Position numbers and translations under genes: made by a program. Of a stretch of DNA of 53,515 nucleotides, positions 22,840-43,520 are shown one piece after another. Every line of letters starts with the position of its first letter. Within the stretch, counting starts at the first letter, position 1. Below the pieces are notes generated by a model that did not search any database, was not told the origin of the DNA, and worked only from the letters and a program-made list of their open reading frames with translations. Source of the DNA: a virus. Location: positions 1 to 53,515 of IMG/VR virus record IMGVR_UViG_3300002131_000092. One strand, 5' to 3'.

Positions 22840-23949
22840 CACCGAATGTTTTTTAGTTATAACATTGTAAGCAATAGTGTGAATAAGACCTTCATGCACA
22901 ATAGGCCTTCCTAGGATATATTCAAGTAGATTTTTCCTAAACAAAATTGCTCCAGTTTTATCTACTACAATAATATCAGCGTTAGGTGTTCCTGTAGGCA
23001 AGAATACTGCCACGCCGTTATATTCTACACCTGAGCGGAATCTATATTTGCCGCCAAATGTTAACCCAATATCAAAGATAGAATGTTTATATGTAATAGT
23101 ATTGAATACTAGGCCAAAGTTAGCATCTCCATTGTCTTTATGCCCATACGGAAGAGCAATAATCACATCATCTAACAGTACGCCTGCATTGTATTTTTTT
23201 ACAAATCTAGGAACATTGAGGTCAACCAATTCAACGTTGTCGGTTAGTGTATCTACTATCAGCATTTGATGTAAATCAAAATCTCTACCTAATGGCAACG
23301 AAAATAACTTATCTCCTGCAATAATAAAGTCGCTGTACTTGCGTCTTGCTTTCGGCAAGTCAGCGGCAATAAAACTTAGTTCTTCAGTGGTTGGATTAAA
23401 CTTTAATATCTGATCGTAGTCGTAGCTTTCACCACGTGGAGCACTCCAATAGAATCCATTAGCCCAGACCGTGCCCATGTGCTTTTTAAGTTCACCTGTA
23501 TTAGGCATAGGTATTTGTTTTACTTGCCCGTCTTTGATAAACAAACTAAAACTAACTTCTTCGTACCCAAGTGGTGCTGAAAATGCAGTATTACCGTCAC
23601 TGGCCATATTATAAAATTGGCCCATCGCTGTACTGTTAATTGTATGATACACTTCTTTATCTGTATCAAAATTAATTTCTAATACAGTGTTAAACTTATC
23701 CCATATTCCGTATGGTGCAAAGAAAACACTGTTTCCGATACTGATCATAGAATTGTACTTGCTGGTAGCCGGTGGAGTATCGACATCAATCCAATTACAA
23801 CTACCATTCTTGTAAATCATAACACGACTATAATCTTTGCATCTGTCTGTACAAAACGGCGGACTAATCAAACAGCCGTTGTGCTTGAATAGCACAAGGT
23901 GTTTAATCTCTGCTTCTCTATAATAATCTTCAAAAGATTTATAAGTCAT
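22792..23949 (-). CDS. beta-propeller protein with P-x-G repeats (paralogue 1)
   Basis: About seven repeats of 45-50 residues each end in a loop such as APYGIWD, APLGYEE, APRGESY, LPLGRDF, LPYGHKD and LPTGTPN. Strands predicting 'kY...i..gd.i...PyG......v...d' lie between them. This is the pattern of a 7-bladed propeller with no signal peptide. Proteins of this repeat type occur in algae and marine viruses (memory). Binding to a glycan or protein is likely. It overlaps the second propeller gene by 11 bases. Confidence 0.75.
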   Translation of the reverse strand: MTYKSFEDYYREAEIKHLVLFKHNGCLISPPFCTDRCKDYSRVMIYKNGSCNWIDVDTPPATSKYNSMISIGNSVFFAPYGIWDKFNTVLEINFDTDKEVYHTINSTAMGQFYNMASDGNTAFSAPLGYEEVSFSLFIKDGQVKQIPMPNTGELKKHMGTVWANGFYWSAPRGESYDYDQILKFNPTTEELSFIAADLPKARRKYSDFIIAGDKLFSLPLGRDFDLHQMLIVDTLTDNVELVDLNVPRFVKKYNAGVLLDDVIIALPYGHKDNGDANFGLVFNTITYKHSIFDIGLTFGGKYRFRSGVEYNGVAVFLPTGTPNADIIVVDKTGAILFRKNLLEYILGRPIVHEGLIHTIAYNVITKKHSVLTVDSNYTLNFIEFL

Positions 23950-25159
23950 TTAGATCCAATGTTTTAATAATTTTTTCAGATATAGTATCGAATATTAGAA
24001 CAGTTTGAAACGATGCACTTTCACCGTAGGGCATAGCACATATAATATCGTTGACAATGCAGCAGGCATTGTATTTTTCAATAGTAGTATTGTCTGTAAA
24101 GCATTCACTAATGTCTATAGTATAATACGAATCGTCCTTGCTGTCAACTACTAACACTTCTGCTAGATCGCCTGTGAGTTTTAGATCTGCGTCTGGGTCA
24201 CACACGCAACCACCTCGAGGAATATAGTAAACTTTACCTTGACTGTTTTCTATTCCTGCAAAATATTTTTTGCTCTCTGTTGTGACGTCTAAGTCAATGG
24301 TCTTGATGTTGCTGTGATCTATAATTAAAAACTTACTCCAACCAGGGTGGTGGCCAGCTGGCGGAAAATACAATTTATTGTTTTTAGTTTTAACGTGAGT
24401 AAAGTACTTTCGAGTAGTTCCTAAAATGCCTGTACGATTACTAGTCCATTCTCCGTCTTTGTTTACTAACATATAATCAAAATCATCATGATATCCATAT
24501 GGTGGCGCATAGATTACATCATCCGCAATGGCAATAGTAGTAAACTTCATAGTAGTATCTGCGTGGTCTTTATATAGATCAGCAAGATTTGAAAGTTTAA
24601 TAGTTCCGTCATCACAATTATATTCGATAGCAAAATTAAATGGAGTATATGCTCCACGAGGTACAGCATAAATCTTGTTGCCTCTTAATACACTTTGATG
24701 CCATTTCTTACAATCGTTAACGGGAACAGCAACATATTTTAATTCGGCAGTTTCGTTAATCAAATCTACTACTAGTACATAGTCTAAGGGTTGATCCTCG
24801 CCATAGGGCAGAGCAAATATTTTATTATTGTAAACATGACCTTGAACGTACTTACCTTTGATAATCTCAGTATCATTGGGCCATGCTACGTTGATGTAGC
24901 TTACTTGTTTGAGATAGGTATCAAATACTAATACTCTTTCCTCACCATAAGGAAGCCAAAATATCTTATCTCCTACTACAGTTCCAAAAGTCCATTTCTC
25001 TTTACTATTGTTTACATCTAGAGGAATTTTTATAATAGCATAAGTCACAGGATTGATAGCCAGCATGTAATCTAATGTGTCCTCTAATCCGTAAGGAGGC
25101 ACATATATAATACCGTCGTTGCCAACTGTTGGGTAGCTAAAGGACTGTGGTGTCATCAT
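23939..25159 (-). CDS. beta-propeller protein with PYG repeats (paralogue 2)
   Basis: Eight repeat loops are visible: PPYGLED, LPYGEER, LPYGEDQ, VPRGAYT, PPYGYHD, PPAGHHP, IPRGGCV and MPYGESA. The 406-residue protein is probably a 7- or 8-bladed propeller and is clearly related to its neighbour. A late-promoter-like AGTAAATA lies 17 bases before the start. The two propellers form a minus-strand pair opposite the enzyme operons. They could be virion-attached binding proteins or secreted factors; no catalytic residues stand out. Confidence 0.78.
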   Translation of the reverse strand: MMTPQSFSYPTVGNDGIIYVPPYGLEDTLDYMLAINPVTYAIIKIPLDVNNSKEKWTFGTVVGDKIFWLPYGEERVLVFDTYLKQVSYINVAWPNDTEIIKGKYVQGHVYNNKIFALPYGEDQPLDYVLVVDLINETAELKYVAVPVNDCKKWHQSVLRGNKIYAVPRGAYTPFNFAIEYNCDDGTIKLSNLADLYKDHADTTMKFTTIAIADDVIYAPPYGYHDDFDYMLVNKDGEWTSNRTGILGTTRKYFTHVKTKNNKLYFPPAGHHPGWSKFLIIDHSNIKTIDLDVTTESKKYFAGIENSQGKVYYIPRGGCVCDPDADLKLTGDLAEVLVVDSKDDSYYTIDISECFTDNTTIEKYNACCIVNDIICAMPYGESASFQTVLIFDTISEKIIKTLDLNDL

Positions 25160-29759: not shown

Positions 29760-30581
29760 ATGATTAAAAATTTAGAATTTTTCGGGTGCAGCGTCACCGC
29801 TGGTAATGAGCTGTGGGAAGAGGCCCACCTGCCAAATTATAAAAAAATGACATTTGACGAAGCAAGAAAGGTTGCAAATACGCATCCGTATACCGAGCTA
29901 CGTCCATATAATATTGCAAATGGATTTCCTGCGCTAACTGCAAAAGCATTAGGCGTAGATTTTAAAAATCATGGAATCCCTGGCATTGCAAACAAGGAAA
30001 TTGCTGCAAGAGCTATTGCAGCATTTCCAGAAGATCATTATTCCAACACAGTTGTACTACTGCAATTTACTACGCACAATAGAATGGTACTACGCTATAA
30101 AGAAACTGAAACAGATTCAACAGTTGGAAGTTTTGTTATTCATCCAAAAGCAACTGACGATAGACTAACACGTAGTCAAAACAATTTATTAAAAGAAATG
30201 TTCCTTGAATTTTTTAATGAAACAACTCTATCCTATGATGATCACTTCTTTATGTACTATGCAGCAGAAGTTTTAAGAAATAAAGGTATTGATGCTCACA
30301 TTTTGTGGTGTGATATTCAAGTAGGTGATTGGATACACTGGGATCATGCTAATGGAACGTTTGATGCTAGTAAAAAGATTACTATTAAATCAGATGTAGA
30401 ACCTGATTATATACAATCTTTTAATATGTTTATTGCTAAAGAATATCACAAATATAATCCTATTGGAAAAACACTTAAAGATATAGTAGGAGCTGACGCT
30501 GTTCTACCTAGATTTCACTACACACAAGAAGCACATCAAAATATTGCTAATGCATTAGTAGAGAGGTTTAAAAATGTTTAA
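29760..30581 (+). CDS. SGNH-like hydrolase
   Basis: FFGCSVTAGNELW near the N terminus holds the nucleophile Ser, KNHGIPGIANKEIAAR the block II Gly/Asn, and RFHYTQEAHQNIA near residue 255 a plausible catalytic His; the paired Asp is not obvious. Length is 273 residues. It opens a plus-strand operon that includes a B12-type radical SAM protein and aminotransferase. Hydrolase or acyltransferase activity on a pathway product is possible. Confidence 0.72.
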   Translation: MIKNLEFFGCSVTAGNELWEEAHLPNYKKMTFDEARKVANTHPYTELRPYNIANGFPALTAKALGVDFKNHGIPGIANKEIAARAIAAFPEDHYSNTVVLLQFTTHNRMVLRYKETETDSTVGSFVIHPKATDDRLTRSQNNLLKEMFLEFFNETTLSYDDHFFMYYAAEVLRNKGIDAHILWCDIQVGDWIHWDHANGTFDASKKITIKSDVEPDYIQSFNMFIAKEYHKYNPIGKTLKDIVGADAVLPRFHYTQEAHQNIANALVERFKNV

Positions 30582-30666
30582 TTGGATAAGAACAATTTAT
30601 ATTAAAATTAAATATAGAAAAAAACTTAAAGAACTGTCAAAGAGATCACCTTACATCTATCGATAA
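30574..30666 (+). CDS. 30-aa basic microprotein
   Basis: ATG at 30574 overlaps the stop of the SGNH gene, and TAA is at 30664-30666. The peptide starts FNWIRTIYIKIKYRKKLKEL and ends SKRSPYIYR. Short basic peptides ending in PxIY recur in marine phages (memory), so this is probably real. It ends 13 bases before the B12-type radical SAM gene. It might be a structural or signalling peptide. A role as peptide substrate of the radical SAM enzymes is an untested alternative. Confidence 0.55.
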   Translation: MFNWIRTIYIKIKYRKKLKELSKRSPYIYR

Positions 30667-30679
30667 TTATAGGCAACAA

Positions 30680-32623
30680 ATGAAGTCTGCTAAGAAGAAA
30701 ATTGTTATATATGTCCCTGACTCTACTTCCGGAATTTACCTTCCGTTGTTATGGGCAAGCGCCAAGAGCTATTATGAGATAAAAGGCCAGCATCCATCAA
30801 AATATGAATGGATCCATCCGCGTATAAATTACGAATTTAATTCAGATAAACTTAAAGCATATCTACTAACTGTCAAGCCTGATGTGTTTGGTATCAGCAT
30901 GTACATATGGAATGACATACAATGTTTAGAAATGGGTAAATGGGTTAAAGAAACATTTCCTAATTGTTTAGTTGTTAGTGGTGGTCCGCAACAATATTTT
31001 AAACACGAAAAAGATTGGTTTCAGCAGTACCCGTTTATCGATGCAAGTCTTGATGGTGGCGAGTACGGCGAACTTACTATTGCTGACATACTAGATAATT
31101 TAACTGAAGATAATAAAGTTGATTGGAACTTAGTAAGAGAAGTAGTATATCCTAGCAAGGATAGGTCTATGATACTTAAAAGTAAAAAGTCAAGTCCTAA
31201 GAGTAGTTTCTTCTGGGACTATAGTGCATACGACATGCAAAAAGATGTTATATTAGAGTGTGCTGCTGAAATCAGAAATCTCAACGGTGGCGGAAAAATT
31301 TCTATCAATACATCCGTTAACGGAAAGTTAGAAACAACTCGTGGATGTCCATATGCATGTGCATTTTGTGATTGGGGCGGTGGCATTGCATCGAAGGTTA
31401 TTAAAAAGTCAGTAGATAATGTAAAACTAGATATTGATATTTTAGAACAAGCAGTGTGTGCATATGTTTTCTTATGCGATGCAAATTTTGGAATAATGCG
31501 TGAACGAGATATTGAGATTATGAAATATCTAGCCAATAAGAAAAAAAATAATTCCTCTTTCTTTCATATATATTTTGGTGGATTTGCTAAGTCAGACAAA
31601 CATACTGAAGTTATAAAAGAAATTTTAGACATTGATGCACGGCATAACTTAACATGGGATTTAAGTTATAAGGCTAGCATACAAAGTATTCATAAAGATA
31701 TTTTAGATAACATTAAACGCAGTGATATTTCTTTTGAAAAACACATATATTTGGCAAAACATCTTAAAGACAACTATAACTTTTCATCATATGCTGAATG
31801 CATTAGCGGCCTGCCAGGTATCACTCCTGATAAATGGTACGAAGAAATGAATGTGTATGCATCACACAATATGGATATCTGTTTGTATAATTGGCACATG
31901 CTTCCAGAAACTCCTAGCTATGATAGTGCATTTAGAGAAAAGATGGGTATAAAGACTGTTAAGAAATATAACAACATGCAAACTAACAACTCTACTTTAC
32001 GCAAAAGCGAAGTTGTAGTTGAGTCTTTCAGTTATACTAAAGACGATTACAAGGAAATGTGGATGGCTTATAGCATCCAACGGGCATTTTGGGCAACTGG
32101 TCTTTTAAGAAAAACGATTAACAAAGTTTTAAAACAATCAGATATAGGATATGGAGATTTTATCAAATTATTCTATAGAGGGTTTGTAAGAGGTAGCTGT
32201 GGCCCAGTGTTTAAAGAACATGTGCAAAAGGTTGATACCCAATTTGCTAGCTACTTCGATCCTAATAGTGATGTTAGTAATTTATCAATATCATTCCCCA
32301 CAGCAAGTGTTCCAGTACAAAGTTCTTTTATGATGTTCTTCTTTTATAATTTTGAAGAATGCAGAGATGTTTTAGTAAAATGGCTAATGTCTAACTTTCC
32401 ATACCTTGATAAAAAGGCAATTAACAAAGAACTTGATACTTTTATTTCTGTAAGAAACAGGTATACTACTAAGTTTAGTTTAACTAGAGCTATCAGCTAC
32501 AACAACAGTGTTATTGATCAATTTAAAAATGACGCAGAAGGTGATTTAGTAGATTTTATAATTACCCAAATGGAAACCTATACTAATACTGACTTCTTAA
32601 CAGCTAGGTCCATAGGCATATGA
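30680..32623 (+). CDS. B12-binding-domain radical SAM protein
   Basis: At 647 residues this is the largest island protein. The first 130 residues form a Rossmann-like B12-binding-type domain (KPDVFGISMYIWND; LVVSGGPQQYF; DGGEYGELT). The classic DxHxxG motif is absent, as in many class B proteins. CPYACAFCDWGG near residue 220 binds the radical SAM cluster. The middle (ISGLPGITPDKWYEEM) follows the Elp3-like core. The C-terminal 200 residues are helical. Such enzymes methylate unactivated carbons or rearrange rings. It overlaps the TauD-like gene by 4 bases. Confidence 0.88.
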   Translation: MKSAKKKIVIYVPDSTSGIYLPLLWASAKSYYEIKGQHPSKYEWIHPRINYEFNSDKLKAYLLTVKPDVFGISMYIWNDIQCLEMGKWVKETFPNCLVVSGGPQQYFKHEKDWFQQYPFIDASLDGGEYGELTIADILDNLTEDNKVDWNLVREVVYPSKDRSMILKSKKSSPKSSFFWDYSAYDMQKDVILECAAEIRNLNGGGKISINTSVNGKLETTRGCPYACAFCDWGGGIASKVIKKSVDNVKLDIDILEQAVCAYVFLCDANFGIMRERDIEIMKYLANKKKNNSSFFHIYFGGFAKSDKHTEVIKEILDIDARHNLTWDLSYKASIQSIHKDILDNIKRSDISFEKHIYLAKHLKDNYNFSSYAECISGLPGITPDKWYEEMNVYASHNMDICLYNWHMLPETPSYDSAFREKMGIKTVKKYNNMQTNNSTLRKSEVVVESFSYTKDDYKEMWMAYSIQRAFWATGLLRKTINKVLKQSDIGYGDFIKLFYRGFVRGSCGPVFKEHVQKVDTQFASYFDPNSDVSNLSISFPTASVPVQSSFMMFFFYNFEECRDVLVKWLMSNFPYLDKKAINKELDTFISVRNRYTTKFSLTRAISYNNSVIDQFKNDAEGDLVDFIITQMETYTNTDFLTARSIGI

Positions 32624-33699
32624 AAGTCACAAAATTTCCCGTAGGCAACTATGGAATTATTATTGACGATTTAGATCTAGATAATATTACCAATGACGAA
32701 TGGCAGGAAATTGGAAAGCTACATTTACAAAACCTAGTCACTATTATTCGTGGTAGTAAGTCTAATGTAAATCAATTCTCTAAACTTATACATCAATGGG
32801 GGCCAGAATTTTGGGGTCTAAAGTATTCATTGCTTAAGAAGTATAATTTAGATTGGAGTACTTTCCAAGCAGCAGTATTAGCAGATTTACCTATCATTAA
32901 ACAAGTGGATAAAGAAATTCTAGATATTCTTTATAAAGCAAGTGTAGTTGCTGACAATGGTAAGAGTGTTAATTTTTTTAGTTCTACTAAAGACAGCAAT
33001 GGCGATTACGGATTGTACGGCGGACAAGAATTAGACTGGCATATGCATAGTAGTGGCAACTATGTATTTGAACATGCTGTTAGTTTGTTAGCAGCAGAAA
33101 ATGTTGTAGGTACAGCGACCGGGTTTGTGAATACAGCAGACTATTATGAAAATATATCAGAAAGTTTTAGAAGCGAACTTAACGATATGATTGTATTACA
33201 CCTATATACATCGGCTGATGTTGAGCCGCCATTTAGGCCTAGCGAAGAAGCAGTTCTCAAATTTAAGATGTGTCCCGTAGACTACAACGAAGTTCCCATG
33301 ATAATACAAAGTCCAGGTGGAATTAAAGGATTACATTTTTCCCCTCCGACTATGCATAGAATTAAAGGTGCCTCAGTAAAAGAAAGTCAACAAGTTTTTA
33401 CCCAAATATCAAAAGAGTTGTTTTGTGAAAAGTACATTTACGATCATTGGTATGCACAAGACGGCGACTTCTTAACATTTGACAACAGCATTACATTGCA
33501 TAGACGAGTTGGACAAACAGAGAATAGAAAAATATATAGAATAGAACACACATATGATAATCTATTAGATAAATTTTATGAACCGTTCTTGCAAGATACC
33601 TATGCTAAACAGCATAGAAAAATGATTAGACAAATTATGAAGTTAGAAAAAAATTCTGGATTTATAAAGCCCCCATTTAAGTTTAAGGATTTAATATGA
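32620..33699 (+). CDS. TauD/TfdA-like oxygenase with HxH in place of HxD
   Basis: The fold follows TauD: an N-terminal VTIIRGSKSN strand, the metal region LDWHMHSSGNYVFEHAVSLL, a VGTATGFVNTADYY segment, and the distal His in DNSITLHRRVG. At the metal site the usual His-x-Asp/Glu reads His-Met-His. A paralogue at 43856 reads His-Ser-Asn. Length is 359 residues. It lies between the radical SAM and aminotransferase genes. The altered facial triad may change activity (for example to halogenation or a non-redox role); this is inference. Confidence 0.82.
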   Translation: MKVTKFPVGNYGIIIDDLDLDNITNDEWQEIGKLHLQNLVTIIRGSKSNVNQFSKLIHQWGPEFWGLKYSLLKKYNLDWSTFQAAVLADLPIIKQVDKEILDILYKASVVADNGKSVNFFSSTKDSNGDYGLYGGQELDWHMHSSGNYVFEHAVSLLAAENVVGTATGFVNTADYYENISESFRSELNDMIVLHLYTSADVEPPFRPSEEAVLKFKMCPVDYNEVPMIIQSPGGIKGLHFSPPTMHRIKGASVKESQQVFTQISKELFCEKYIYDHWYAQDGDFLTFDNSITLHRRVGQTENRKIYRIEHTYDNLLDKFYEPFLQDTYAKQHRKMIRQIMKLEKNSGFIKPPFKFKDLI

Positions 33700-34874
33700 T
33701 TTTAGATTTTAAAGGATTAATACCTGGACCTCAAACACAGCTCAAGCCGATAGATTTATCTCAGTCTTGGAACTTTGGATTTATAAAAGACAGCGGCCTA
33801 GTTATAGATCCGTTAATGCATCATGCTTGCTATACATTAGGGTACAGCAGACAGGGATTCATTGACAGTGTAATGGAAAGAATGAAATCTGTTAAGCCAG
33901 AGACTACAGAGGTATCGACTATCATTGATAGTATTCCTAAAGTTAATCATGTAAGTTATCAACTTGCTGAAAAGCTATATGAGCTTTCTGGAGGATATAG
34001 AAGTTTTTTTGCATTATCTGGCAGCGATGCAAATGAAGGTGCTATAAAACTAGCAAGTGCATATCACAGCGCCAAAGGAAATAGACAAAAGAAAAATGTA
34101 GTAAGTCTAATGCCGAGCTATCACGGAAGTACACTACTAACTAGTAGTTTAGGATTTGAAAATGTTATGCCTGATCCATTTTACACTATGGATCGTTATC
34201 ACGGCGTTATAAGAGTAGAACGTGATTTTGCCAAAGATAGTGTGGACTGGAGCACAGTTTCTTGTATAATGGTTGAAACATGCCAGTATAGTAATCACTT
34301 AACTCCGTTTACTAATGACTTTTGGAAAAAGTTAAATGACATAAGATTAGAGCATGATGTTCTAATTGTTATAGATGATATCTTTATGGGCGGCGGCAAG
34401 ACTGGACAGTTTATTGGTTGGAAACATTTGCCAATAGAGCCTGATATTTTTACAATGGGCAAGGCTATAACAGCAGGATATTTTCCATTAAGTGCAACGT
34501 TGTATAATGATAATATATCTAACGTGCTTGGCAAAGAGTTTGGCTGGAATCATGGCTACACCTATAGTTTTACTATTCCTGGCATATGCAGTGCATTAGA
34601 ATATCTAAAAATTCTAGAAGAAGACGAGTTGTTAAGCAAACACGATGTGTTGGTTGAGAAAGCAACTAATGTATTTCTAGAATCAGAGTTTAGTATTGTA
34701 GGTAGATTTGGCCTTTACTTTATGATAAGTTTCAAGAACATTGAATTTTTATTTTTTATTCCGTTGACAGCTAGTGACGAATACTTTGCTGTACTAAAAG
34801 ATAATTTAGAACAAATGAAAATACTTATTAACAATAAGCTAGGGTATTCGGTTGTTGTTGGGGGTATGCAGTGA
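33696..34874 (+). CDS. class III pyridoxal-phosphate aminotransferase
   Basis: FALSGSDANEGAIKLA, YHGSTLLTSSLG, VETCQYSN, IDDIFMGGGKTGQFIGW and MGKAITAGYFPLSATLY are the class III signature blocks; the Lys in MGKAITAG is the expected PLP-binding residue. The 392-residue protein belongs near BioA, glutamate-semialdehyde and omega-amino acid aminotransferases. It would add or remove an amino group on an aldehyde or ketone in the island pathway. It overlaps its neighbours by 4 bases on each side. Confidence 0.9.
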   Translation: MILDFKGLIPGPQTQLKPIDLSQSWNFGFIKDSGLVIDPLMHHACYTLGYSRQGFIDSVMERMKSVKPETTEVSTIIDSIPKVNHVSYQLAEKLYELSGGYRSFFALSGSDANEGAIKLASAYHSAKGNRQKKNVVSLMPSYHGSTLLTSSLGFENVMPDPFYTMDRYHGVIRVERDFAKDSVDWSTVSCIMVETCQYSNHLTPFTNDFWKKLNDIRLEHDVLIVIDDIFMGGGKTGQFIGWKHLPIEPDIFTMGKAITAGYFPLSATLYNDNISNVLGKEFGWNHGYTYSFTIPGICSALEYLKILEEDELLSKHDVLVEKATNVFLESEFSIVGRFGLYFMISFKNIEFLFFIPLTASDEYFAVLKDNLEQMKILINNKLGYSVVVGGMQ

Positions 34875-35395
34875 AAGTAGCAATAACAGGGCATATGTCT
34901 GGATTAGGGAAATCGCTTTACAGTCTGTTCGACGATGTATTAGGTTTCGATTTAAACAACGGCTTTGATATACGCAATCCACTATCTATAGTAGAACAGG
35001 CAAAATCATGTGATGTGTTTATCAACAATGCTTATCATAAATTTAGCCAAGTAGATCTTTTAGAACTAATGTTTACTGAATGGAAAAACGAATCCAAGAC
35101 TATTGTTAATATAAGTAGCCTAGGTGCTGACGCTACCATAACATCCCTAGAACCATTTGGTTTTTATCCAATACATAAGCGAGCATTAGATGACGCAACA
35201 ACTAGACTACAATATATTGCAGGCAAGTGTAGAATTATTAACATTAAACCTGGATGGATAGACACACCGATGGTGGCAGAATTTAACACGGACAAATTAG
35301 ATCCAGACCAACTTGCATTAGATATTAAAGATGTTATAATATCTAATAAAGCCATACGATCGATAACCTTAGGAAACTTGGATTATAAAAGATGA
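34871..35395 (+). CDS. short-chain dehydrogenase/reductase, compact
   Basis: AITGHMSGLGKSLY at the N terminus is the TGxxxGxG nucleotide site, DVFINNAYH the NNA-like strand, NISSLGAD the catalytic Ser region and YPIHKRALDDA the YxxxK pair. At 174 residues it is shorter than the usual 250, missing parts of the C-terminal region. It probably reduces a carbonyl formed or used by the aminotransferase. It overlaps both neighbours by 4 bases. Confidence 0.85.
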   Translation: MKVAITGHMSGLGKSLYSLFDDVLGFDLNNGFDIRNPLSIVEQAKSCDVFINNAYHKFSQVDLLELMFTEWKNESKTIVNISSLGADATITSLEPFGFYPIHKRALDDATTRLQYIAGKCRIINIKPGWIDTPMVAEFNTDKLDPDQLALDIKDVIISNKAIRSITLGNLDYKR

Positions 35396-36072
35396 CACCA
35401 AAAGAAATAGAAATTAAAGAATTTTATGATACAGTGACGTTTCCTGGCCTATACTCTGCAAGTGAAGTTATTGATCACGGAGACTACTTAATATACGAGC
35501 GTTATTTAAAGTTCATAGAAGAACACGATGTCAACACAATATTAGATGTAGGATGTGGCAGCGGCTATATTACTAACGTAATAGCACATAACTTTCCTAA
35601 TATTAAAATTGTAGCACTAGACTTTAGTGATACAATCAAGCACGGAAAGAAAATAAGCAAAGAACTAGGACTAACAAACATTACTTGGAAGCAGATTAGT
35701 TTCTTTGATTTTAAGTCTAAGACATTTGATCTAGTACTAAGCAACGGCTCTATCCATCATATGCCGGAGTTTGATCTTGCTGTTAACAAACTAAAAGATT
35801 TATCGCACAAATATATTATGGTAGGTTTGTATAATAAGTACGGCAAATGGATACAGCGCAAATTAAGACCTAAGTTTATTACCGAGTGCTTTGAACTCGA
35901 TCAAATGAAAATACCTTTTGAATTAAGTTTTACAAATAAACAAGCATTAAACTATTTTAATGAGCACACTCTACTCAAAGTCACACCTAGTATATTAGGG
36001 CACGGTGTAGATTTTTTTAGCCTATTTCGCGGCAAATGGGGCGGCTTTACTTTTTATTATTTCAAGAAGTAA
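35392..36072 (+). CDS. class I SAM-dependent methyltransferase
   Basis: ILDVGCGSGYITNVIAHNF is motif I, VALDFSDTIKHGKK motif II, and LVLSNGSIHHM motif IV. The 226-residue protein has a C-terminal region with basic and aromatic residues (KWIQRKLRPKF). It resembles small-molecule or lipid methyltransferases. It ends the plus-strand operon and overlaps the convergent oxygenase gene by 11 bases. Confidence 0.85.
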   Translation: MTPKEIEIKEFYDTVTFPGLYSASEVIDHGDYLIYERYLKFIEEHDVNTILDVGCGSGYITNVIAHNFPNIKIVALDFSDTIKHGKKISKELGLTNITWKQISFFDFKSKTFDLVLSNGSIHHMPEFDLAVNKLKDLSHKYIMVGLYNKYGKWIQRKLRPKFITECFELDQMKIPFELSFTNKQALNYFNEHTLLKVTPSILGHGVDFFSLFRGKWGGFTFYYFKK

Positions 36073-36640
36073 TGTAGTCAGCAAACATAGCCACTGCCAT
36101 ATCAAATTTAACATGCTTTGGTTCTGACTTTTCTGCAAGCGGAATCGCTAGTGTCCATCGTCCTTTAGGTCCAGGACAGTATGTGCTATGTAAAATTCCT
36201 ACTTGTACTAGACTGGGAATGTTTGTAGGAGTCCTATGTACTTCGTCACATTGATGTGCTTCTGCTCTTAGATAATTTACTCCAAAAGTAGTTATAATTG
36301 GCTCAGGTGTAAATCCTTTTTTAGGCTTCCACCAAATAATTTCTCCGTCGCCGTAAGAAATATTTAATCTTGCAATGTTGCTTATGTGATCAGTGTCTGC
36401 ATGTATCCATATACCTCCACCCGGTGGCGTGTAAAATGCTTCCCAACTGGGAATACGTAGTCCTTGAATACTTTCCATAAACTCTACGAACTCTTTGTTA
36501 AGCATAGTCTTGGGATTTATTTCTACATGATTTAATTGATCAGGATTTTCTGGAAACAACTTGAACAGATCAATTTCCGGCATCACTGGTAAATTAAGAT
36601 ATTGATGAACATATGGTTTTCTTTTAAAGATATTAAACAT
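36062..36640 (-). CDS. 2-oxoglutarate/Fe(II) oxygenase-like (paralogue group B)
   Basis: GIWIHADTDHISNIARLN gives HxD, and VGILHSTYCPGPKGRWTLAIPL (in parts) the distal His and Arg. AFYTPPGGG before it matches AFYTPPYGG of the protein at 37409, so the two are paralogues. Length is 192 residues. It is the last gene of a five-gene minus operon starting at 39586. Confidence 0.78.
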   Translation of the reverse strand: MFNIFKRKPYVHQYLNLPVMPEIDLFKLFPENPDQLNHVEINPKTMLNKEFVEFMESIQGLRIPSWEAFYTPPGGGIWIHADTDHISNIARLNISYGDGEIIWWKPKKGFTPEPIITTFGVNYLRAEAHQCDEVHRTPTNIPSLVQVGILHSTYCPGPKGRWTLAIPLAEKSEPKHVKFDMAVAMFADYITS

Positions 36641-37412
36641 TAAAAAATATCCTTTTTATTTCTGCTGCTATTAACTTATAGCCTTCGATAGTTGGATGCA
36701 TATCATTGGTCATATATGTAGCAGGATAATCCATCTTAGGATAAAAGTTTGCTACAGATTCGTAGTCATCTGCACATAAGTTATCTTGCCTTGCAAACAA
36801 CCTAGCAAAACAATCGTAATTTGTATGACTATGCACACACCGACCCCAATCTATTTTACTAGATACTTCAGGACACATTTTATCTAAGTATTCTTGTCCT
36901 CGTATTTCGAAACCGTTTCCAAAAATAAAATCAAACCCGTTAGCTTTAGCAAAGTTCTGTGCTTCTAGAATACAGCAAGCAGTTTCAACAGCAGCAGCCT
37001 CTTCGCTGTATAACTTTTGATACATAACATGCATATCTTTGTGATCTAAAAACGGCCACAGTGTTTCAAATTTGTAATGATTATCTTGCCATTGTTCTGT
37101 AAAAAAATCAAAACGTTCAAATCCCGTAAGAATTAAAACAACAGTGCCGCTTGTGTATAGTTTAAGATCATTCAAATAAAGGCTACGTACAGCACCTCTA
37201 TTGCCAATTGCACGTTGCCCAAGATTAATTGGCGCATAGTTTAGATGTTGTGCTAATCTATTAACCCAACTATTTTCTTGCTCCATGGGTATTAGGTGCA
37301 TGGACTCGCTTAACTTTTTCCACATACGACCATGGTTAGCTTTCCAAACTTCGTCAGAATATCCGCCTTCGCCTTGTGTCCAACTATCGCCTATTCCTAT
37401 TAGTGCCTTCAA
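36633..37412 (-). CDS. SGNH-like hydrolase
   Basis: GIGDSWTQGEGGYSD at the N terminus carries the GDSx nucleophile. INLGQRAIGNRG is block II, LILTGFERFDFF block III, and NDMHPTIEGYKL supplies Asp and His. Length is 259 residues. It lies between the two related oxygenases with 4- and 8-base overlaps, so these three genes probably act together. Confidence 0.85.
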   Translation of the reverse strand: MKALIGIGDSWTQGEGGYSDEVWKANHGRMWKKLSESMHLIPMEQENSWVNRLAQHLNYAPINLGQRAIGNRGAVRSLYLNDLKLYTSGTVVLILTGFERFDFFTEQWQDNHYKFETLWPFLDHKDMHVMYQKLYSEEAAAVETACCILEAQNFAKANGFDFIFGNGFEIRGQEYLDKMCPEVSSKIDWGRCVHSHTNYDCFARLFARQDNLCADDYESVANFYPKMDYPATYMTNDMHPTIEGYKLIAAEIKRIFFNV

Positions 37413-38011
37413 GCCTGCTCCTTGCTTACATAGTCTTGAAGTATTAACAATGCTTCACTCCAAACTAATCGTTTAGTTTCGTCTGCATTTATCAAAGGAA
37501 GACTCAGCGTCCAACGTCCTTCTTCAGTAGGATTCCATGTACTATGAAACGCTCCGATATTTACAAGACTTGGTTTTTTAACTTCTACTTCAAGTAGTTT
37601 CCTACAATGCCGCTCTTTAGCAGTAAGATACTGTGCTCCGAACTCTGTTTGAAAAGTTTCTATATACTTTGCATCTTTAACTTCCCACCAGATTAAAGTA
37701 CTGCCCGGTGCGCCCCATGTCCAATTAACTTTAACAACATCAGATAGCTCGCTAGTATCTGTGTGTATTGGTATCTTCCCACCATACGGTGGTGTATAAA
37801 ATGCTTCAAATGCTAACTTTATACCCAACTGTTCAAACCAAGCAACAAGTTTAGGATTAACGTCACTTGCATCTATTAACATATGACGATAGTACATAGG
37901 GTCATAGTCTGTTCTAGCAAACAGATCAATTTTAGGATCTATAGGTATATCAAGAAATCTATGATAGCGATTCTCGACCTTTTTCTTTTTGAATAGATTA
38001 AATATCGACAT
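37409..38011 (-). CDS. 2-oxoglutarate/Fe(II) oxygenase-like (paralogue group B)
   Basis: KIPIHTDTSELSDVVKVNW provides HxD. NIGAFHSTWNPTEEGRWTLSL (in parts) provides the distal His and Arg. The first 15 residues are basic (FNLFKKKKVENRYHR). Length is 200 residues. It is clearly related to the gene at 36062 across the SGNH gene, so duplication has flanked a hydrolase. Confidence 0.78.
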   Translation of the reverse strand: MSIFNLFKKKKVENRYHRFLDIPIDPKIDLFARTDYDPMYYRHMLIDASDVNPKLVAWFEQLGIKLAFEAFYTPPYGGKIPIHTDTSELSDVVKVNWTWGAPGSTLIWWEVKDAKYIETFQTEFGAQYLTAKERHCRKLLEVEVKKPSLVNIGAFHSTWNPTEEGRWTLSLPLINADETKRLVWSEALLILQDYVSKEQA

Positions 38012-38816
38012 AGTTTTCTAAAGAATTTTTACTTACCAAGCAGTGGTCTTTATATAGTTCTACACTACGTCCCATTACTTCGTCGTATCTTTTAGGATCA
38101 ATTAACCCAATACCAATGCCGAGTATTTTTTTGTATTGCGGATCATATACGCTACCATGTTTAACCCGTAAGTTATTCCACATATATGTATTAGTTGTGG
38201 GAAGATTTGGCAAAAAAGTAGGCTCTTCACAGTGATATGGTTTTGTAGGATTATCAAATACAAACAATGAGTTTTCGGGATTTTCGTCATACAACTTTAT
38301 TCTAAACGATCCAGGAAAATCAAATAATTCTGCACTATCTCTATGATCGCTAAACGTCTGAACAGCAGACCACATATTAAGAACCAGTAGTCTACTAACA
38401 GGAAGCGACTCATTAAACTGTTGCCATAACTTCGGAAACTCTTTTTTAAAGTTATCTGTTTGCATATTTAAATTCCAGTCATCACCTATTTCTTGTATAA
38501 GATCTACAGATTCAAATGGAGAATAACCTGTGACATCTGCCACATAATCGCCTTTTTGCTTAACTGGTCTAATAGAATGAGTCTTCCACCAATGCATAAA
38601 GTGATCTTCGTCCGGTAGTTCAAATAATGGTACAGCCAGTGGAACTAGCAAATACTTTCCATACTTTTTCTCTAGCTCATTGATTACAGGATCGTTATTA
38701 AAAAACTGCTTTATTTGAGTTTCACGACTAGTAGTAAGATAGTCGATTAATCGAGAAGGATCGTTGCGCTCCTTCTCTCGTTCTCTTAGTGCATTTTCTG
38801 TAGGTACATACTTCAA
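37998..38816 (-). CDS. 2-oxoglutarate/Fe(II) oxygenase-like, larger type
   Basis: TFSDHRDSAELFDFPGSFRI near residue 163 carries HRD, and NLRVKHGSVYDPQY near residue 222 a distal His, in a jelly-roll strand order (NSLFVFDN; ILGIGIGLI). The N-terminal 60 residues are charged and helical. Length is 272 residues. It is more diverged than its neighbours, so activity is less certain. Overlaps of 14 and 4 bases tie it to the operon. Confidence 0.65.
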   Translation of the reverse strand: MKYVPTENALREREKERNDPSRLIDYLTTSRETQIKQFFNNDPVINELEKKYGKYLLVPLAVPLFELPDEDHFMHWWKTHSIRPVKQKGDYVADVTGYSPFESVDLIQEIGDDWNLNMQTDNFKKEFPKLWQQFNESLPVSRLLVLNMWSAVQTFSDHRDSAELFDFPGSFRIKLYDENPENSLFVFDNPTKPYHCEEPTFLPNLPTTNTYMWNNLRVKHGSVYDPQYKKILGIGIGLIDPKRYDEVMGRSVELYKDHCLVSKNSLENYVDI

Positions 38817-39586
38817 ATCTTTTCTCCGTACTTTGCTTTAATTTCTGTATACAGATCTCGATTGTACCTACCGTGGTCTCCTCTATTGCTTAAATCTATT
38901 GCAGGATTGTGCGGAGCTTGTGGTTCCATACCAATATGTGCCATGTCTAAGTCAATCATAAAAATTACACGCCATTCGTTGCTTAGATTGTATGCACTGT
39001 GAGAGTGTTGATTATTAAATCCCCAAATATTATCCCATTTTACTTCTTCGCCACTTGCTTCTAAAAATATGTCACCTTCTGGCACAATCAAAGGAATATG
39101 TATTCTAATATATTTTCCTTCTCTATTCTCTGGGCCGCTGTGTCTATGCAAAATTGTTTGTGGTGCTAGGATGCTGTAATTAGCTATAGGGCAATATTCA
39201 CCATAGCTTTTTACTAGATTGTAAGCTGTGGGATATCTTTTTGAAATTCGATCATTTTCTGCTCGTTCAAAATCAAAATCAATCATTTCATCATGCCGAC
39301 CGTATTTAAACTGGATGCTCTTCCATCCATTCATATTTCTTTCAAATTTACCAGTCTCTGGATTTTTTATTTCGACGCCTTTTTCAGTCTCGTCTAACGC
39401 AACTCCAAACATACGTAAGTCTAGATTATTGGTAGAATATTTTGAGCAGGCTTCTTCAACAGATGAAAAATCTGCAACGAACTCGTCTGTGAGAGCCTTT
39501 TGAAAAGTCATGAGATGATCGGCAATGGGAATTTCGTTCCCACGCCAGATCTTTTTTAATTGATAAATTTCTTCTATTGATAACAT
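38813..39586 (-). CDS. Asp/Asn beta-hydroxylase-like oxygenase
   Basis: TILHRHSGPENREGKYIRIH near residue 147 and NNQHSHSAYNLSNEWRVIFM near residue 196 match the two-His metal site and following strands of the aspartyl/asparaginyl beta-hydroxylase family, which often lacks the carboxylate ligand. Length is 257 residues. It is first in a minus-strand operon driven by AATAAATA at 39614-39621. Confidence 0.75.
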   Translation of the reverse strand: MLSIEEIYQLKKIWRGNEIPIADHLMTFQKALTDEFVADFSSVEEACSKYSTNNLDLRMFGVALDETEKGVEIKNPETGKFERNMNGWKSIQFKYGRHDEMIDFDFERAENDRISKRYPTAYNLVKSYGEYCPIANYSILAPQTILHRHSGPENREGKYIRIHIPLIVPEGDIFLEASGEEVKWDNIWGFNNQHSHSAYNLSNEWRVIFMIDLDMAHIGMEPQAPHNPAIDLSNRGDHGRYNRDLYTEIKAKYGEKI

Positions 39587-39613
39587 AATACAGCACCCTC
39601 GCTAATGCCGTAT

Positions 39614-39621
39614 TATTTATT
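39614..39621 (-). promoter_or_regulatory. late promoter AATAAATA (oxygenase/SGNH operon)
   Basis: A 7/8 late octamer 28 bases before the ATG at 39586, giving a leader of about 22 bases. Confidence 0.55.
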
Positions 39622-39629
39622 AGACTAGT

Positions 39630-40922
39630 TTATGTCCATGTACCATCTTTGGCAACTCGTACCCAAGTGCTAGCACCGTAGCAGAAATAGATGTAATTTG
39701 CATCACCTGCAATTTGTCCGGCTTTGCCGGCTGCTGTTGGACCTGCCGGTACTGCTACTACGCTTGTTAATGTAGTAAATTGCGCACCGTCATAAAATAC
39801 TGGAGCACTTCTTTCAGCACCATAACCAAATGTACCTTCGGTTACAATAGCTCCAAAAGCAGTTAGTTCCGAATCAGTACCGTTGTATACTTTAACACCA
39901 AATCCTGCATCAAATGTTCCGTTTGCACGGAAAGCAAACGGGCGATACAGGCCGTCTTGATTCAATACGTTAACTGTTAAGTCTGCACTAAAGTTGTCTG
40001 CAACAATAGCACTAGTGACAACACTGCCGATGACCGCAGCTTTTTTAAATGCTGTACCTTCAAACCCTTCAAATGCCAGTTGACCTAACAGATCAGTGTC
40101 TACTACCGGAGTTAGTGTAGTACCTGTGTATCGTGCAGCTTGGATCGAAAAGTTTACCCCTTCCGCTGCATTTGCTTCACCGCGGATAGTTAATGGATAG
40201 TTTTCACCCTCGATAAACAATGCACCAAGATCGGCTCTTGTTCCAATTGCAACAATAGGAACGTTAGCAGATATAAGCGTATCGTAAATAGATCCAATAG
40301 CAGTTCCGGATAATACACTACCGCTTAGTGTTAATGTTCCGTTGCTAATATCTCCTGATACACCGTCAATTAGTTTAGTAGAATCGTCAGCAAACACTGA
40401 ACCTTGTACATCGCCAACAACGTTGCCATTTAATGTTCCAGTAGCAGTTCCGGAGAATGTACCTGACGCTGCGCCATTAAATGTTCCGGTATGTGCGCCG
40501 GCAGCATCACCAGTTAAATTGCCAGTCACATTACCAACAACGTTGCCTGTTAGTGTAGCATATACAATTTTATCAATCGAATCTACAATGATAGACGAAT
40601 CGTCAGCAAATACGCTGCCTTTAAGTGAATCTGCAACTATCGGCCCGTCAAATGCTGCTAGGTCAACAGTAGCGTCTATTCTGTTTAATGCATCATTATA
40701 AGTAAACACAATACCTGTATGAGTACCGTTTGTAAACAGTTCAGCGGCGGCATCTTGTGCATCCTCGTCCGTATAACCGGTAATCTGAACTCCGCCTAAA
40801 CTACTAGCATTACCAATGTATAACCGTTGGTCGTCTGTGACATACAGTAATTCACCAGACGCAAGCGGTTGCGTCATATTTAATCTTTCAGCATTTGTGC
40901 CTCTGCGAATCTGTAAGGGCAT
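39630..40922 (-). CDS. tail-fibre-like virion protein with G-N-V repeats
   Basis: The N terminus PLQIRRGTNAERLNMTQPL with GELLYVTDDQRLYIGN is the classic start of phage fibre proteins of the MtdA/short-tail-fibre type. Residues 125-175 form a low-complexity repeat (GNVVGNVTGNLTGDAAG; GTFSGTATGTLNGNVVGD). SVFADDSTKLIDGVSG and SVFADDSSIIVDSI are repeated modules seen in marine phages. The C terminus ends STWVRVAKDGTWT. Length is 430 residues. A CATAAATA promoter and CAGGAG ribosome site precede it. It likely takes part in host attachment. Confidence 0.85.
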   Translation of the reverse strand: MPLQIRRGTNAERLNMTQPLASGELLYVTDDQRLYIGNASSLGGVQITGYTDEDAQDAAAELFTNGTHTGIVFTYNDALNRIDATVDLAAFDGPIVADSLKGSVFADDSSIIVDSIDKIVYATLTGNVVGNVTGNLTGDAAGAHTGTFNGAASGTFSGTATGTLNGNVVGDVQGSVFADDSTKLIDGVSGDISNGTLTLSGSVLSGTAIGSIYDTLISANVPIVAIGTRADLGALFIEGENYPLTIRGEANAAEGVNFSIQAARYTGTTLTPVVDTDLLGQLAFEGFEGTAFKKAAVIGSVVTSAIVADNFSADLTVNVLNQDGLYRPFAFRANGTFDAGFGVKVYNGTDSELTAFGAIVTEGTFGYGAERSAPVFYDGAQFTTLTSVVAVPAGPTAAGKAGQIAGDANYIYFCYGASTWVRVAKDGTWT

Positions 40923-40955
40923 ATTATTAACTCCTGGAAATTTCCTATCTTAATG

Positions 40956-40963
40956 TATTTATG
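40956..40963 (-). promoter_or_regulatory. late promoter CATAAATA (tail fibre)
   Basis: A 7/8 late octamer just after a terminator, with a 28-base leader that contains CAGGAG 8 bases before the ATG at 40922. Confidence 0.65.
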
Positions 40964-40970
40964 CCAGCCA

Positions 40971-40996
40971 AAAAAATAGGACTCCGAAGAATCCTA
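40971..40996 (-). terminator. intrinsic terminator with UUCG loop
   Basis: On the minus strand AGGATTC-TTCG-GAGTCCT forms a 7-base-pair hairpin with a UUCG tetraloop, followed by ATTTTTTT. It ends the IF-1/57-aa operon and insulates the tail-fibre promoter. Confidence 0.85.
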
Positions 40997-41012
40997 TAAA
41001 GTACGTAGATAA

Positions 41013-41186
41013 TCAATAAACTTCTTTAATAATACTATATTCGTTGTCGGGCCATTTGGTCTTAAACTCCTCGGTTTTAACATACTCACTATAGTCTTTG
41101 GCATTAAAAAACATGCGATGAAACTCTGTTTTCATAGACCCTTTTTTGGTTATTGTCAAATAAACCGATTTAGCTTTGCCTGCCAT
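41013..41186 (-). CDS. 57-aa phage protein, unknown function
   Basis: Start ATG at 41186, stop TGA at 41013-41015. The protein starts AGKAKSVYLTITKKGSMKTE and ends WPDNEYSIIKEVY. It has an AAAGG ribosome site and its own sigma70 promoter (41215-41243). It is followed by the UUCG terminator. No family is recognised. Confidence 0.65.
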   Translation of the reverse strand: MAGKAKSVYLTITKKGSMKTEFHRMFFNAKDYSEYVKTEEFKTKWPDNEYSIIKEVY

Positions 41187-41214
41187 ATATTACCTTTCGT
41201 TGTATAATAATACT

Positions 41215-41243
41215 AGTATAACATAAATTTATCATTTAGTCAA
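41215..41243 (-). promoter_or_regulatory. sigma70 promoter
   Basis: TTGACT, 17-base spacer, TATACT on the minus strand, between the IF-1 gene and the 57-codon gene. Confidence 0.7.
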
Positions 41244-41249
41244 GAGATA

Positions 41250-41468
41250 TTATAGTCTGTAGGTCACACGACCTTTGGTAAGGTCATATGGACTAACTTC
41301 TATTTTTACTCGATCGCCCATTATAATCTTAATTTTGTGTTTTTTAAGTTTTCCGCTAGTATAGCAGATTATGATGGCTGGGTTATTATCAATTTTTACT
41401 CGGAACATACTTCCGGGTAAAACTTCTTCTACACTACCTGTTAATTCAATTAGTTGATCTTTTGCCAT
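41250..41468 (-). CDS. infA: translation initiation factor IF-1
   Basis: The 72-residue protein has exactly the length of bacterial IF-1. It follows the family: MAKDQLIELTGSVEEVLPG at the start, MFRVKIDNN, SGKLKKHKIKIIMGDRVKIE and SPYDLTKGRVTYR at the end. IF-1 is an OB-fold protein that occupies the ribosomal A site during initiation. A phage copy could favour phage mRNA initiation, particularly with the large tRNA set nearby. It overlaps nothing and lies 3 bases after an oxygenase gene. Confidence 0.92.
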   Translation of the reverse strand: MAKDQLIELTGSVEEVLPGSMFRVKIDNNPAIIICYTSGKLKKHKIKIIMGDRVKIEVSPYDLTKGRVTYRL

Positions 41469-41471
41469 ATA

Positions 41472-42050
41472 TTATTGGTATTCAATATCTGCTGCTAGAA
41501 TAAATCGGTATTTGCTACTTTGTACTATTCCTGGACGATGCCAAGTTTGTCCCGGATATATTATCCAGTGTCCGTCATTAGGGCGTACGAAGAACTTGTC
41601 ATCATTGTTTACGCCAGTTGGCGCTATTTCAGTGCCACAGTAATCACGGTCTTTTACATCATCTGGGATGTTAAGATACCAAATTCCACTTAACATGCCT
41701 TTAGTATTTGGATCTTGTGGATGCCAGTGATGATGCCAAAGTTTTTCGCGGTCTTCGGCACCCTGGAGATTTGTCATAAAACTCCACGCCATCATGTTAG
41801 ATACCTTGACTTCACGGCCTAAATACATAAACACTGAGAACAGGAAGCTCATACGGTACTTTAACCATATAGCTTCCTGTCGAGCAAATATATTTTCTTT
41901 TGTTTGAAACTTGGGACTGTTGGTAAAGTAATTACCGTCTGAGATGATATTCTTAACTATGCCACAGGCTTCTAAGTCATCTTGTTTTGTAATCAACGAA
42001 CTGAAGTTATATTTCTTAACGACAGTATTTTCATCTACTACAGGAATCAT
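41472..42050 (-). CDS. 2-oxoglutarate/Fe(II) oxygenase-like (PF13759-type)
   Basis: HHHWHPQDPNTKGMLSGIWY near residue 103, NDGHWIIYPGQTWHRPGIVQ near 158 and RFILAADI at the end match the putative 2OG oxygenase group found in marine phages. His residues at both sites can bind iron. Length is 192 residues. It is just upstream of infA and just downstream of tRNA-Gly(TCC). Confidence 0.78.
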   Translation of the reverse strand: MIPVVDENTVVKKYNFSSLITKQDDLEACGIVKNIISDGNYFTNSPKFQTKENIFARQEAIWLKYRMSFLFSVFMYLGREVKVSNMMAWSFMTNLQGAEDREKLWHHHWHPQDPNTKGMLSGIWYLNIPDDVKDRDYCGTEIAPTGVNNDDKFFVRPNDGHWIIYPGQTWHRPGIVQSSKYRFILAADIEYQ

Positions 42051-42071
42051 GTTTTCATCTATTTTTTAATA

Positions 42072-42147
42072 TGGAGCGGGCGAAGGGGTTCGAACCCTCG
42101 ACATCTTGCTTGGAAGGCAAGTGCTCTACCAACTGAGCTACACCCGC
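42072..42147 (-). tRNA. tRNA-Gly(TCC)
   Basis: Full cloverleaf with 7-base-pair acceptor (GCGGGTG with CGCCCGC), T73 and encoded CCA. The anticodon loop CTTCCAA reads GGA. Canonical TTCGAAC T-loop. Confidence 0.95.
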
Positions 42148-42155
42148 ATAATTCA

Positions 42156-42737
42156 TTAAACTAGACCCTCTACCTGCAGAGTTGCTACTGCTTCATCAGT
42201 TAGAGGAATCTCTGTTTTGATGTTAATCTCAAGAATTTCATCATTGAGTTTTTGCTTTTGCTTCTTGAGACTTAATACTTCTGCCTTTGCTTGAACAATC
42301 TGTTCTTTAGCAAGAACACTGGTGCTGACAGTATCGCTGTATCCGTAGATGCTACGTCGGCTGGCTTCACCCTTGTCATTCTTGATCTTATCAAGTTTAC
42401 CGTTGATAACTGCCAATGCAGTCATTTCTGTAGCACTAGCTAGTTCTTCTAGCTGACTAATGCGCTTGTCGATGAATGCAGCTTTAGCTAGCCCTGTATT
42501 AATCCCACTGGCAGCATTCGCCGTACCAATTAGAGCGCGGATGTTATACAGAGTCATAGTTAACTTTTGACGACGAGTGTCACTTTCTACCAAAGCAGCG
42601 TTAGCTTTATCTAGAACTTCTTCAACATTTTGAAACTCGTTAATCTCAACATTGAGTTCAACTTTGATATTCTTAATTGCATCTTGGATGCTGTTTTGTA
42701 ATACATTTGCTTTGCGTAGTGTAATATTCATATTCAT
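42156..42737 (-). CDS. coiled-coil phage protein, unknown function
   Basis: The 193-residue protein is almost entirely helical with long heptad-like stretches (AKEQIVQAKAEVLSLKKQKQ; INEFQNVEEVLDKANAALVE). It has no catalytic motif. It could be a scaffold or structural factor. A promoter at 42998-43026 with a 250-base leader or ORF-containing transcript precedes it. Confidence 0.7.
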   Translation of the reverse strand: MNMNITLRKANVLQNSIQDAIKNIKVELNVEINEFQNVEEVLDKANAALVESDTRRQKLTMTLYNIRALIGTANAASGINTGLAKAAFIDKRISQLEELASATEMTALAVINGKLDKIKNDKGEASRRSIYGYSDTVSTSVLAKEQIVQAKAEVLSLKKQKQKLNDEILEINIKTEIPLTDEAVATLQVEGLV

Positions 42738-42828
42738 CTCTTTTTAAAAAAAAACGGGTCAACGAAAGGTCAAGCAATAGACTAAACAAAGGACAAATCG
42801 CAATGTACAACATACAAAGCACAGAGGC

Positions 42829-42951
42829 CTATATATCTCCGACTAACAAATGACATTCTATTAAGGTCGGATCACATAAACACGGAACGTTTTTCAGACG
42901 TTTGCCAGTAGTTTTCTTTAGCATGAAGCCAAAGATTGTGCCTATCCTCAT
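42829..42951 (-). CDS. possible 40-aa microprotein in the leader
   Basis: ATG at 42951 follows GAAGGG at a good ribosome-site distance, and TAG is at 42829-42831. The peptide starts RIGTIFGFMLKKTTGKRLK and ends CDPTLIECHLLVGDI. It lies between a sigma70 promoter and the coiled-coil gene. It may be a real small gene or an upstream ORF. Apart from it, the 42738-43039 spacer shows no other feature I can name. Confidence 0.45.
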   Translation of the reverse strand: MRIGTIFGFMLKKTTGKRLKNVPCLCDPTLIECHLLVGDI

Positions 42952-42997
42952 CTACCCTTCGTCTTACCGGTAGTGTTATTTCTAACCCTACAAACTA

Positions 42998-43026
42998 ATA
43001 ATAACACAGTGTGTTATCATTGTCAA
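42998..43026 (-). promoter_or_regulatory. sigma70 promoter with palindromic spacer
   Basis: TTGACA, 17-base spacer and TATTAT. The spacer and -10 overlap the inverted repeat ATAACACAGTGTGTTAT, which could be an operator. Confidence 0.7.
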
Positions 43027-43039
43027 CCTATTTTGGTAA

Positions 43040-43402: not shown

Positions 43403-43430
43403 CTAATCTTTTCTCCTCTGCTAGATGTTA

Positions 43431-43513: not shown

Positions 43514-43520
43514 TAGTAAA

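Follow-up and report, generated by a model that had tools for sequence, protein, structure and literature searches.

A 53,515-nucleotide stretch of viral DNA (IMG/VR record IMGVR_UViG_3300002131_000092, positions 1 to 53,515; hereafter the window) contains, at 30680-36072 on the plus strand, an operon of five enzyme genes coding, in order, for a cobalamin (B12)-dependent radical S-adenosylmethionine (SAM) enzyme (rSAM), a TauD-like 2-oxoglutarate (2OG) oxygenase homologue, a class III pyridoxal phosphate (PLP) aminotransferase, a putative short-chain dehydrogenase/reductase (SDR), and a class I SAM methyltransferase. We find that the operon is made of two portable modules. The core consists of SGNH1, a hydrolase/acyltransferase-like gene, and the 30-codon gene pep30, followed by the rSAM, TauD-like, and methyltransferase genes; the aminotransferase and SDR genes form an add-on pair. 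The whole explanation we propose, that of a portable core and an add-on pair whose enzymes act successively on one small substrate, is in our judgment evenly balanced between being right and being wrong.

The five genes occupy positions 30680-32623 (rSAM, 647 amino acids), 32620-33699 (TauD-like protein, 359 amino acids), 33696-34874 (aminotransferase, fold type I, 392 amino acids), 34871-35395 (SDR, GTG start, 174 amino acids), and 35392-36072 (methyltransferase, 226 amino acids). All four junctions are overlaps of exactly 4 bases (ATGA, ATGA, GTGA, and ATGA in gene order). An earlier note on this DNA had described five enzyme genes joined in this way and preceded by an SGNH gene and a gene for a 30-residue peptide, and the plus-strand open reading frames and junction sequences bear this out. 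Pfam matches exceeded the cutoffs for Radical_SAM (30 bits, cutoff 29.5), TauD (75, cutoff 27), Aminotran_3 (131, cutoff 30.5), and Methyltransf_31 (60, cutoff 27). The short SDR stayed below its cutoff (22.9 versus 26.6 bits), though its TGxxxGxG (TGHMSGLG), NNAY, and YxxxK (YPIHK) motifs are present; the PLP lysine of the aminotransferase, Lys256, is invariant. No phage isolate matched the operon in a nucleotide search. A bacterial source of the operon was considered and rejected: the closest bacterial rSAM is only 28% identical, and its neighbour genes are unrelated.

Scans of IMG/VR yielded six further contigs with rSAM identity of 65-81%. The order SGNH1, pep30, rSAM, TauD is the same in all six, one of which stops after the TauD-like gene, and in every relative complete over that stretch the rSAM, TauD-like, and methyltransferase genes follow one another in order and overlap. 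In four of them (L012, L014, L015, and L017) the TauD-like gene overlaps the methyltransferase gene directly through ATGA, with neither aminotransferase nor SDR in between. The same ATGA marks the right edge of the pair in the window (35392-35395, SDR stop and methyltransferase start), and an ATGA also marks its left edge (33696-33699, TauD stop and aminotransferase start). The pair was not found elsewhere on the four contigs, which are fragments of 37-67 kb, and among close relatives it is present only in the window and in its sibling L013, the same contig as L001 and L008. It recurs, with the same 4-base overlap, in L242-L244 (aminotransferase 42-43% and SDR 50-52% identical); there it sits inside a cluster resembling the one at 14406-21977 of the window, and no B12-dependent rSAM gene was found on the L243 contig. 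Since the pair is absent from four complete relatives and yet is present in another phage cluster, we regard it as a portable cassette joined to a conserved core.

The pair is probably a recent add-on in the lineage of the window. Were the five-gene set ancestral, the pair would have been lost in the other lineages, and B12-dependent rSAM genes of other phages, among them one of 266 kb in the same family, do have distant relatives of the aminotransferase beside them. We think this quite unlikely, as the other four complete relatives show a clean 4-base overlap between TauD-like and methyltransferase genes with no remnant, and homologues of the two genes occur as a pair in another cluster. Gain in the lineage of the window is more parsimonious than loss elsewhere. 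The earlier note had treated the five enzymes as one set, to be given up if the genes were not conserved together and had different closest contexts; the comparison with relatives keeps the rSAM, TauD-like, and methyltransferase genes together, while two of the five genes, aminotransferase and SDR, do have a different context and are absent from all four complete relatives outside the lineage of the window. Two other readings of the pair were dropped. Import of aminotransferase, SDR, and methyltransferase as one block was suggested by the window and L017 methyltransferases being 66% identical amid flanks of 87-88%; other genome pairs with similar TauD-like proteins show equally divergent methyltransferases. 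A daptide-like scheme, in which a class III aminotransferase and a methyltransferase act on a peptide, was rejected because the daptide aminotransferase model reached 107 of 450 bits, a score that generic transaminase models equal.

At the upstream end of the core, SGNH1 (29760-30581, plus strand; no Pfam match, first-block motif GCS at residues 9-11) overlaps pep30 (30574-30666, plus strand) by 8 bases. SGNH1 is kept in the six relatives at 46-73% identity. The basic 30-amino-acid pep30 product, with the C-terminus YRKKxKxLSKRSPxIYR, is encoded in all seven close phages under strong purifying selection (nonsynonymous diversity, pN, 0.13 versus synonymous diversity, pS, 0.70; dN/dS of ca. 0.07); this dN/dS is close to the values for the rSAM and TauD-like genes and below that of SGNH1. 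By this measure pep30 is a real gene, in line with the earlier note. No RNA structure was detected around it (z-score +1.18). Two further loci, L322/L323:5213-6093, on phage contigs of 133 kb and 266 kb, carry SGNH1 (35%) and pep30 (50%) as a pair with no adjoining rSAM gene, and because of this SGNH1 is the predicted partner of pep30. The same loci bear on whether pep30 is a ribosomally made carrier or precursor peptide, of the pearlin type or that of ribosomally synthesized and post-translationally modified peptides, on which the rSAM, TauD-like protein, and methyltransferase act. Its position is attractive, for the gene is tiny, strongly conserved, and directly 5' of the rSAM gene, with an almost invariant C-terminus, and in the pearlin pathway a B12-dependent rSAM methylates a residue bound to a carrier peptide (PMC9303977). 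Given the rSAM-less pair of L322/L323, and given that the families matched in the neighbouring genes include neither a recognisable protease nor a PEARL-like enzyme, we consider this role highly improbable and have set it aside.

The rSAM protein is well supported as a B12-type enzyme. Pfam assigns it just the generic Radical_SAM domain, and the top NCBIfam model, the KedN5 methylcobalamin-dependent C-methyltransferase (NF033712), gave 144.8 bits against a cutoff of 700, by which the protein would be a relative of the KedN5 family and not a member. A phmmer search of the PDB matched TokK (4.5e-34, with the B12 domain aligned) and CysS (6e-28) and no other PDB sequence; residues 64-145 align with the N-terminal cobalamin-binding domain of TokK. 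An AlphaFold2 model built from an alignment of 29 relatives (predicted local distance difference test, pLDDT, 87.6) aligned over its full length with TokK (template modelling, TM, score 0.74-0.76) and CysS (TM 0.63-0.68). The cysteines of the CxxxCxxC motif that binds the [4Fe-4S] cluster (C223, C227, and C230) are invariant across the 29 aligned relatives, as is Trp77, which aligns with TokK Trp76; in TokK that residue, and in CysS Trp75, lies over the lower cobalamin face (PMC12846815). Because of these matches, the full-length fold, and the invariant cysteines and tryptophan, the label of B12-type radical SAM enzyme given in the earlier note can be retained, and methylation is the likeliest predicted reaction. 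The phage protein thus has in common with the carbapenem (TokK) and cystobactamid (CysS) C-methyltransferases the full-length fold, CxxxCxxC, the N-terminal cobalamin domain, and the lower-axial tryptophan; it differs from them in being only ca. 20-22% identical, in being phage-encoded, and in having no carrier protein found nearby.

The second core enzyme has the TauD fold, and its predicted model matches TauD, RdpA, and AAD-1. With the TauD/TfdA Fe(II)/2OG dioxygenases (PF02668) it shares the fold, the distal histidine (His294), and the invariant 2OG-binding pair Arg303 and Arg307 near the C-terminus; it departs from them at the HxD/E...H facial triad, where the aspartate ligand is replaced by histidine (H141-M-H143...H294) in six of the six operon members checked and by asparagine in standalone members. 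Standalone viral relatives carried HSN...H in 73 of the places checked across 80 viral TauD loci, the protein of phage P-HM2 also carries HSN, and TauD-like neighbours of other viral B12-dependent rSAM genes carry HAN. As such sites recur across all these groups, the aspartate-less iron site is a feature of the clade, and sequencing error does not account for it. Neither this substitution nor the absence of the aminotransferase-SDR pair from most relatives is mentioned in the earlier note. Human AspH functions with two histidines, and 2OG halogenases work without the carboxylate (PMC10947486), so the TauD-like protein may still be active. Known relatives are PHROG 24590 and the "taurine catabolism dioxygenase" (T4-GC447) of Prochlorococcus phages P-HM1 and P-HM2; the window protein is 36% identical to that of P-HM2. 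A second TauD-like paralogue is encoded in the window at 43856-44953; it is ca. 41% identical to the product of 32620-33699, and both lack the carboxylate ligand (HSN versus HMH).

To see which genes accompany viral B12-dependent rSAM genes elsewhere, we counted neighbours across 37 further clusters, formed from viral rSAM genes at 85% identity, leaving out the window-like and L049 groups and taking "near" as within four genes. TauD-like genes were near in six clusters and, within the flanks retrieved, never far (p=0.0013). PLP genes of the class I/II-like type, which were assigned by motifs and have no Pfam match, were near in 10 cases and far in 5 (p=0.0075), class III PLP genes near in 3 and far in none (p=0.036), and methyltransferases near in 8 and far in 5 (p=0.03). 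At bacterial loci of the rSAM family these neighbour families occurred in 0-1 of 69.

On the aminotransferase side, 158 viral relatives were found, and the best 80 of the 158 were read and fell into 29 non-redundant clusters. Among these, an amidinotransferase-like gene lay at most two genes downstream of the aminotransferase gene in 19 of 29 clusters, an SDR gene was adjacent in four, and both occurred together in none. The amidinotransferase assignment is by PDB matches (HsvA 1e-24, StrB1 4.5e-18, and SxtG), Pfam having given nothing. On the related 266-kb contig (G006), an aminotransferase (39-43%) and a B12-dependent rSAM gene are adjacent and divergent, beside an amidinotransferase-like gene. 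Because related viral aminotransferases partner an amidinotransferase, an amine product of the aminotransferase is plausible. The likeness is to guanidino pathways of the streptomycin type (StrB1, PDB 1bwd), since most of the viral homologues are paired with a StrB1/HsvA-like amidinotransferase; in the window, by contrast, a profile search of the open reading frames found no amidinotransferase, and the partners of the aminotransferase are an SDR and a methyltransferase. The aminotransferase-amidinotransferase pair is itself widespread in viruses (e.g. L343:5001-7727, L354:5004-7210, and 17 further clusters).

In the scheme we propose, the core enzymes would share one small substrate, which may be a free amine, a lipid, or a surface sugar. 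The rSAM would methylate an unreactive carbon through methylcobalamin, the TauD-like protein, whose iron site is atypical, would oxidise one position (its hydroxylating activity is inferred), and the class I methyltransferase would cap a hydroxyl. In the lineage of the window, the SDR and aminotransferase would convert the hydroxyl, by way of a ketone, to an amine ahead of the cap, so that addition of the pair would replace an O-methyl product with an N-methyl amino compound. The operon likely serves to modify a small molecule, or the precursor of a surface sugar, step by step, and the product most likely alters the host surface or an infection-related metabolite, because the locus lies in a tail-fibre-adjacent hypervariable region. 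The successive pathway for a methylated amino compound or amino sugar that the earlier note had envisaged gains from the co-conserved core, the neighbour enrichment, and the amidinotransferase partnership, and loses in that the five genes are not a fixed set; its description as complete is not borne out, no substrate, precursor-making, or releasing enzyme having been identified.

Several points weigh against the proposed scheme. An iron site that lacks the carboxylate makes hydroxylation doubtful. The substrates of TokK and CysS are pantetheine-linked, and no carrier protein domain (PF00550, PP-binding) was found on seven contigs; a carrier-bound substrate by analogy with these enzymes was rejected on this ground. 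SDR genes were not enriched beside viral B12-dependent rSAM genes (5 near, 14 far). The profiles used to count neighbours were seeded from some of those neighbours, and the enrichments are no longer significant once rSAM clusters are merged at 50% identity, so that few independent origins were sampled. The five genes, lying in a hypervariable hotspot, may be linked by co-transcription only.

Taken further, this last point would make the genes independent cargo in an acquisition hotspot, with the overlaps reflecting compact phage transcription and with no common pathway. The hypervariable region does see genes come and go, among them those for desaturases, halogenases, and many 2OG oxygenases as well as further rSAM genes; the aminotransferase-SDR pair is not conserved together with the rest, and the neighbour enrichment is weak at 50% clustering. 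We nevertheless judge this unlikely, since all complete close relatives retain the rSAM-TauD-methyltransferase order amid the exchange of other genes, and in the flanks sampled TauD-like genes lay near viral B12-dependent rSAM genes but at no greater distance.

The locus is a variable island, with presence/absence and allelic variation, next to a tail-fibre gene of the Mtd_N family at 39630-40922, 3.6 kb from the operon; many small 2OG oxygenase genes and several radical SAM genes lie in the neighbourhood. Between the window and its sibling L013 (L008), only two positions differ across 32893-42872, and identity falls to ca. 70% only at about 30036-32892, a tract with near-identical flanks that takes in the greater part of SGNH1, then pep30 and rSAM, and the beginning of the TauD-like gene. 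This tract may result from homologous replacement within one population; alternatively, it may be an assembly chimera. L013 also carries, upstream, two desaturase genes that the window lacks. Around the core operon of sister phages, tandem fatty-acid desaturase genes come and go (L008:272-1830, L012:7451-9222, L015:13669-15930), and a tryptophan-halogenase-like gene (L014:6547-7764, L017:6610-7830) also varies.

A host recognition cluster typically shows recombined alleles and genes that are present in some phages and absent from others (PMC7029224). Together with the nearby Mtd_N gene and the presence of KdsA and KdsB genes in the window, these traits make it possible, if less than probable, that the operon synthesizes or alters a sugar of the cell surface (a methylated amino sugar on lipopolysaccharide or capsule), which would change the host receptor during infection or help to exclude other phages. 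Against such a sugar, the five genes bear no sugar-nucleotide signature, the aminotransferase is of class III, with best matches to amine and acetylornithine transaminases and not the DegT sugar type, and the enzymes with the most similar rSAM structures use substrates linked to pantetheine. KdsA is encoded at 2593-3363 (329 bits, above the cutoff) and a KdsB-like protein at 11150-11812 (175 bits, cutoff 193); from these matches, the phage may make CMP-Kdo (cytidine monophosphate-linked 3-deoxy-D-manno-octulosonate).

Since genes of the 266-kb contig G006 match those of the window at 62-74%, the window probably represents part of a large phage genome. In the pelagimyophage host recognition cluster, radical SAM cassettes differ between close phages and lipopolysaccharide genes are present (PMC7029224), and cyanophages carry TauD-like, AspH-like, and halogenase genes (PMC3037559). 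The island described here resembles these regions of T4-like marine phages in being tail-fibre-adjacent and hypervariable and in its radical SAM cassettes, 2OG oxygenases, and halogenase; what sets it apart is a methyltransferase operon that is B12-dependent and has an add-on pair with mapped edges, and a phage whose relatives include a 266-kb contig. In the open-access papers searched, no phage operon built on a cobalamin-dependent rSAM methyltransferase is described, an absence that is weak evidence. Cobalamin-dependent radical methyltransferases have so far come mostly from antibiotic and cofactor pathways. The presence or absence of the pair between sister phages amounts to a natural experiment on a virus lengthening a biosynthetic pathway, and viruses seem to lengthen such pathways by gene pairs. 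The analysis also exposes a widespread viral TauD clade lacking the usual iron ligand and the widespread viral aminotransferase-amidinotransferase pair. A broader, speculative reading, which we consider rather unlikely, is that large phages carry out combinatorial, natural-product-like tailoring, in which portable additions (aminotransferase-SDR, aminotransferase-amidinotransferase, desaturases, and halogenase) join a B12-dependent C-methyltransferase core with a carboxylate-less, perhaps non-hydroxylating, TauD-like protein to give a lineage-specific decorated amine or sugar.

Other features of the window were noted. The same-strand run at 14406-21977 contains five radical SAM genes (one of the twitch type, 390 bits versus a cutoff of 170) with methyltransferase-like and PP-loop-like genes, and the homologous clusters of L243 and L334 either contain an aminotransferase gene or lie next to one. 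A SpeD-like gene lies at 43040-43402 (120 amino acids), and SpeD-like genes are also found near aminotransferase and B12-dependent rSAM genes in L025 and L334; some phage SpeD homologues are arginine or ornithine decarboxylases (PMC9992855). There are 25 tRNA genes at 42072-49907, all on the minus strand. Two minus-strand proteins of ca. 400 amino acids encoded at 22792-25159, with repeated PPYG/LPYG motifs and no family match, are possibly beta-propellers.

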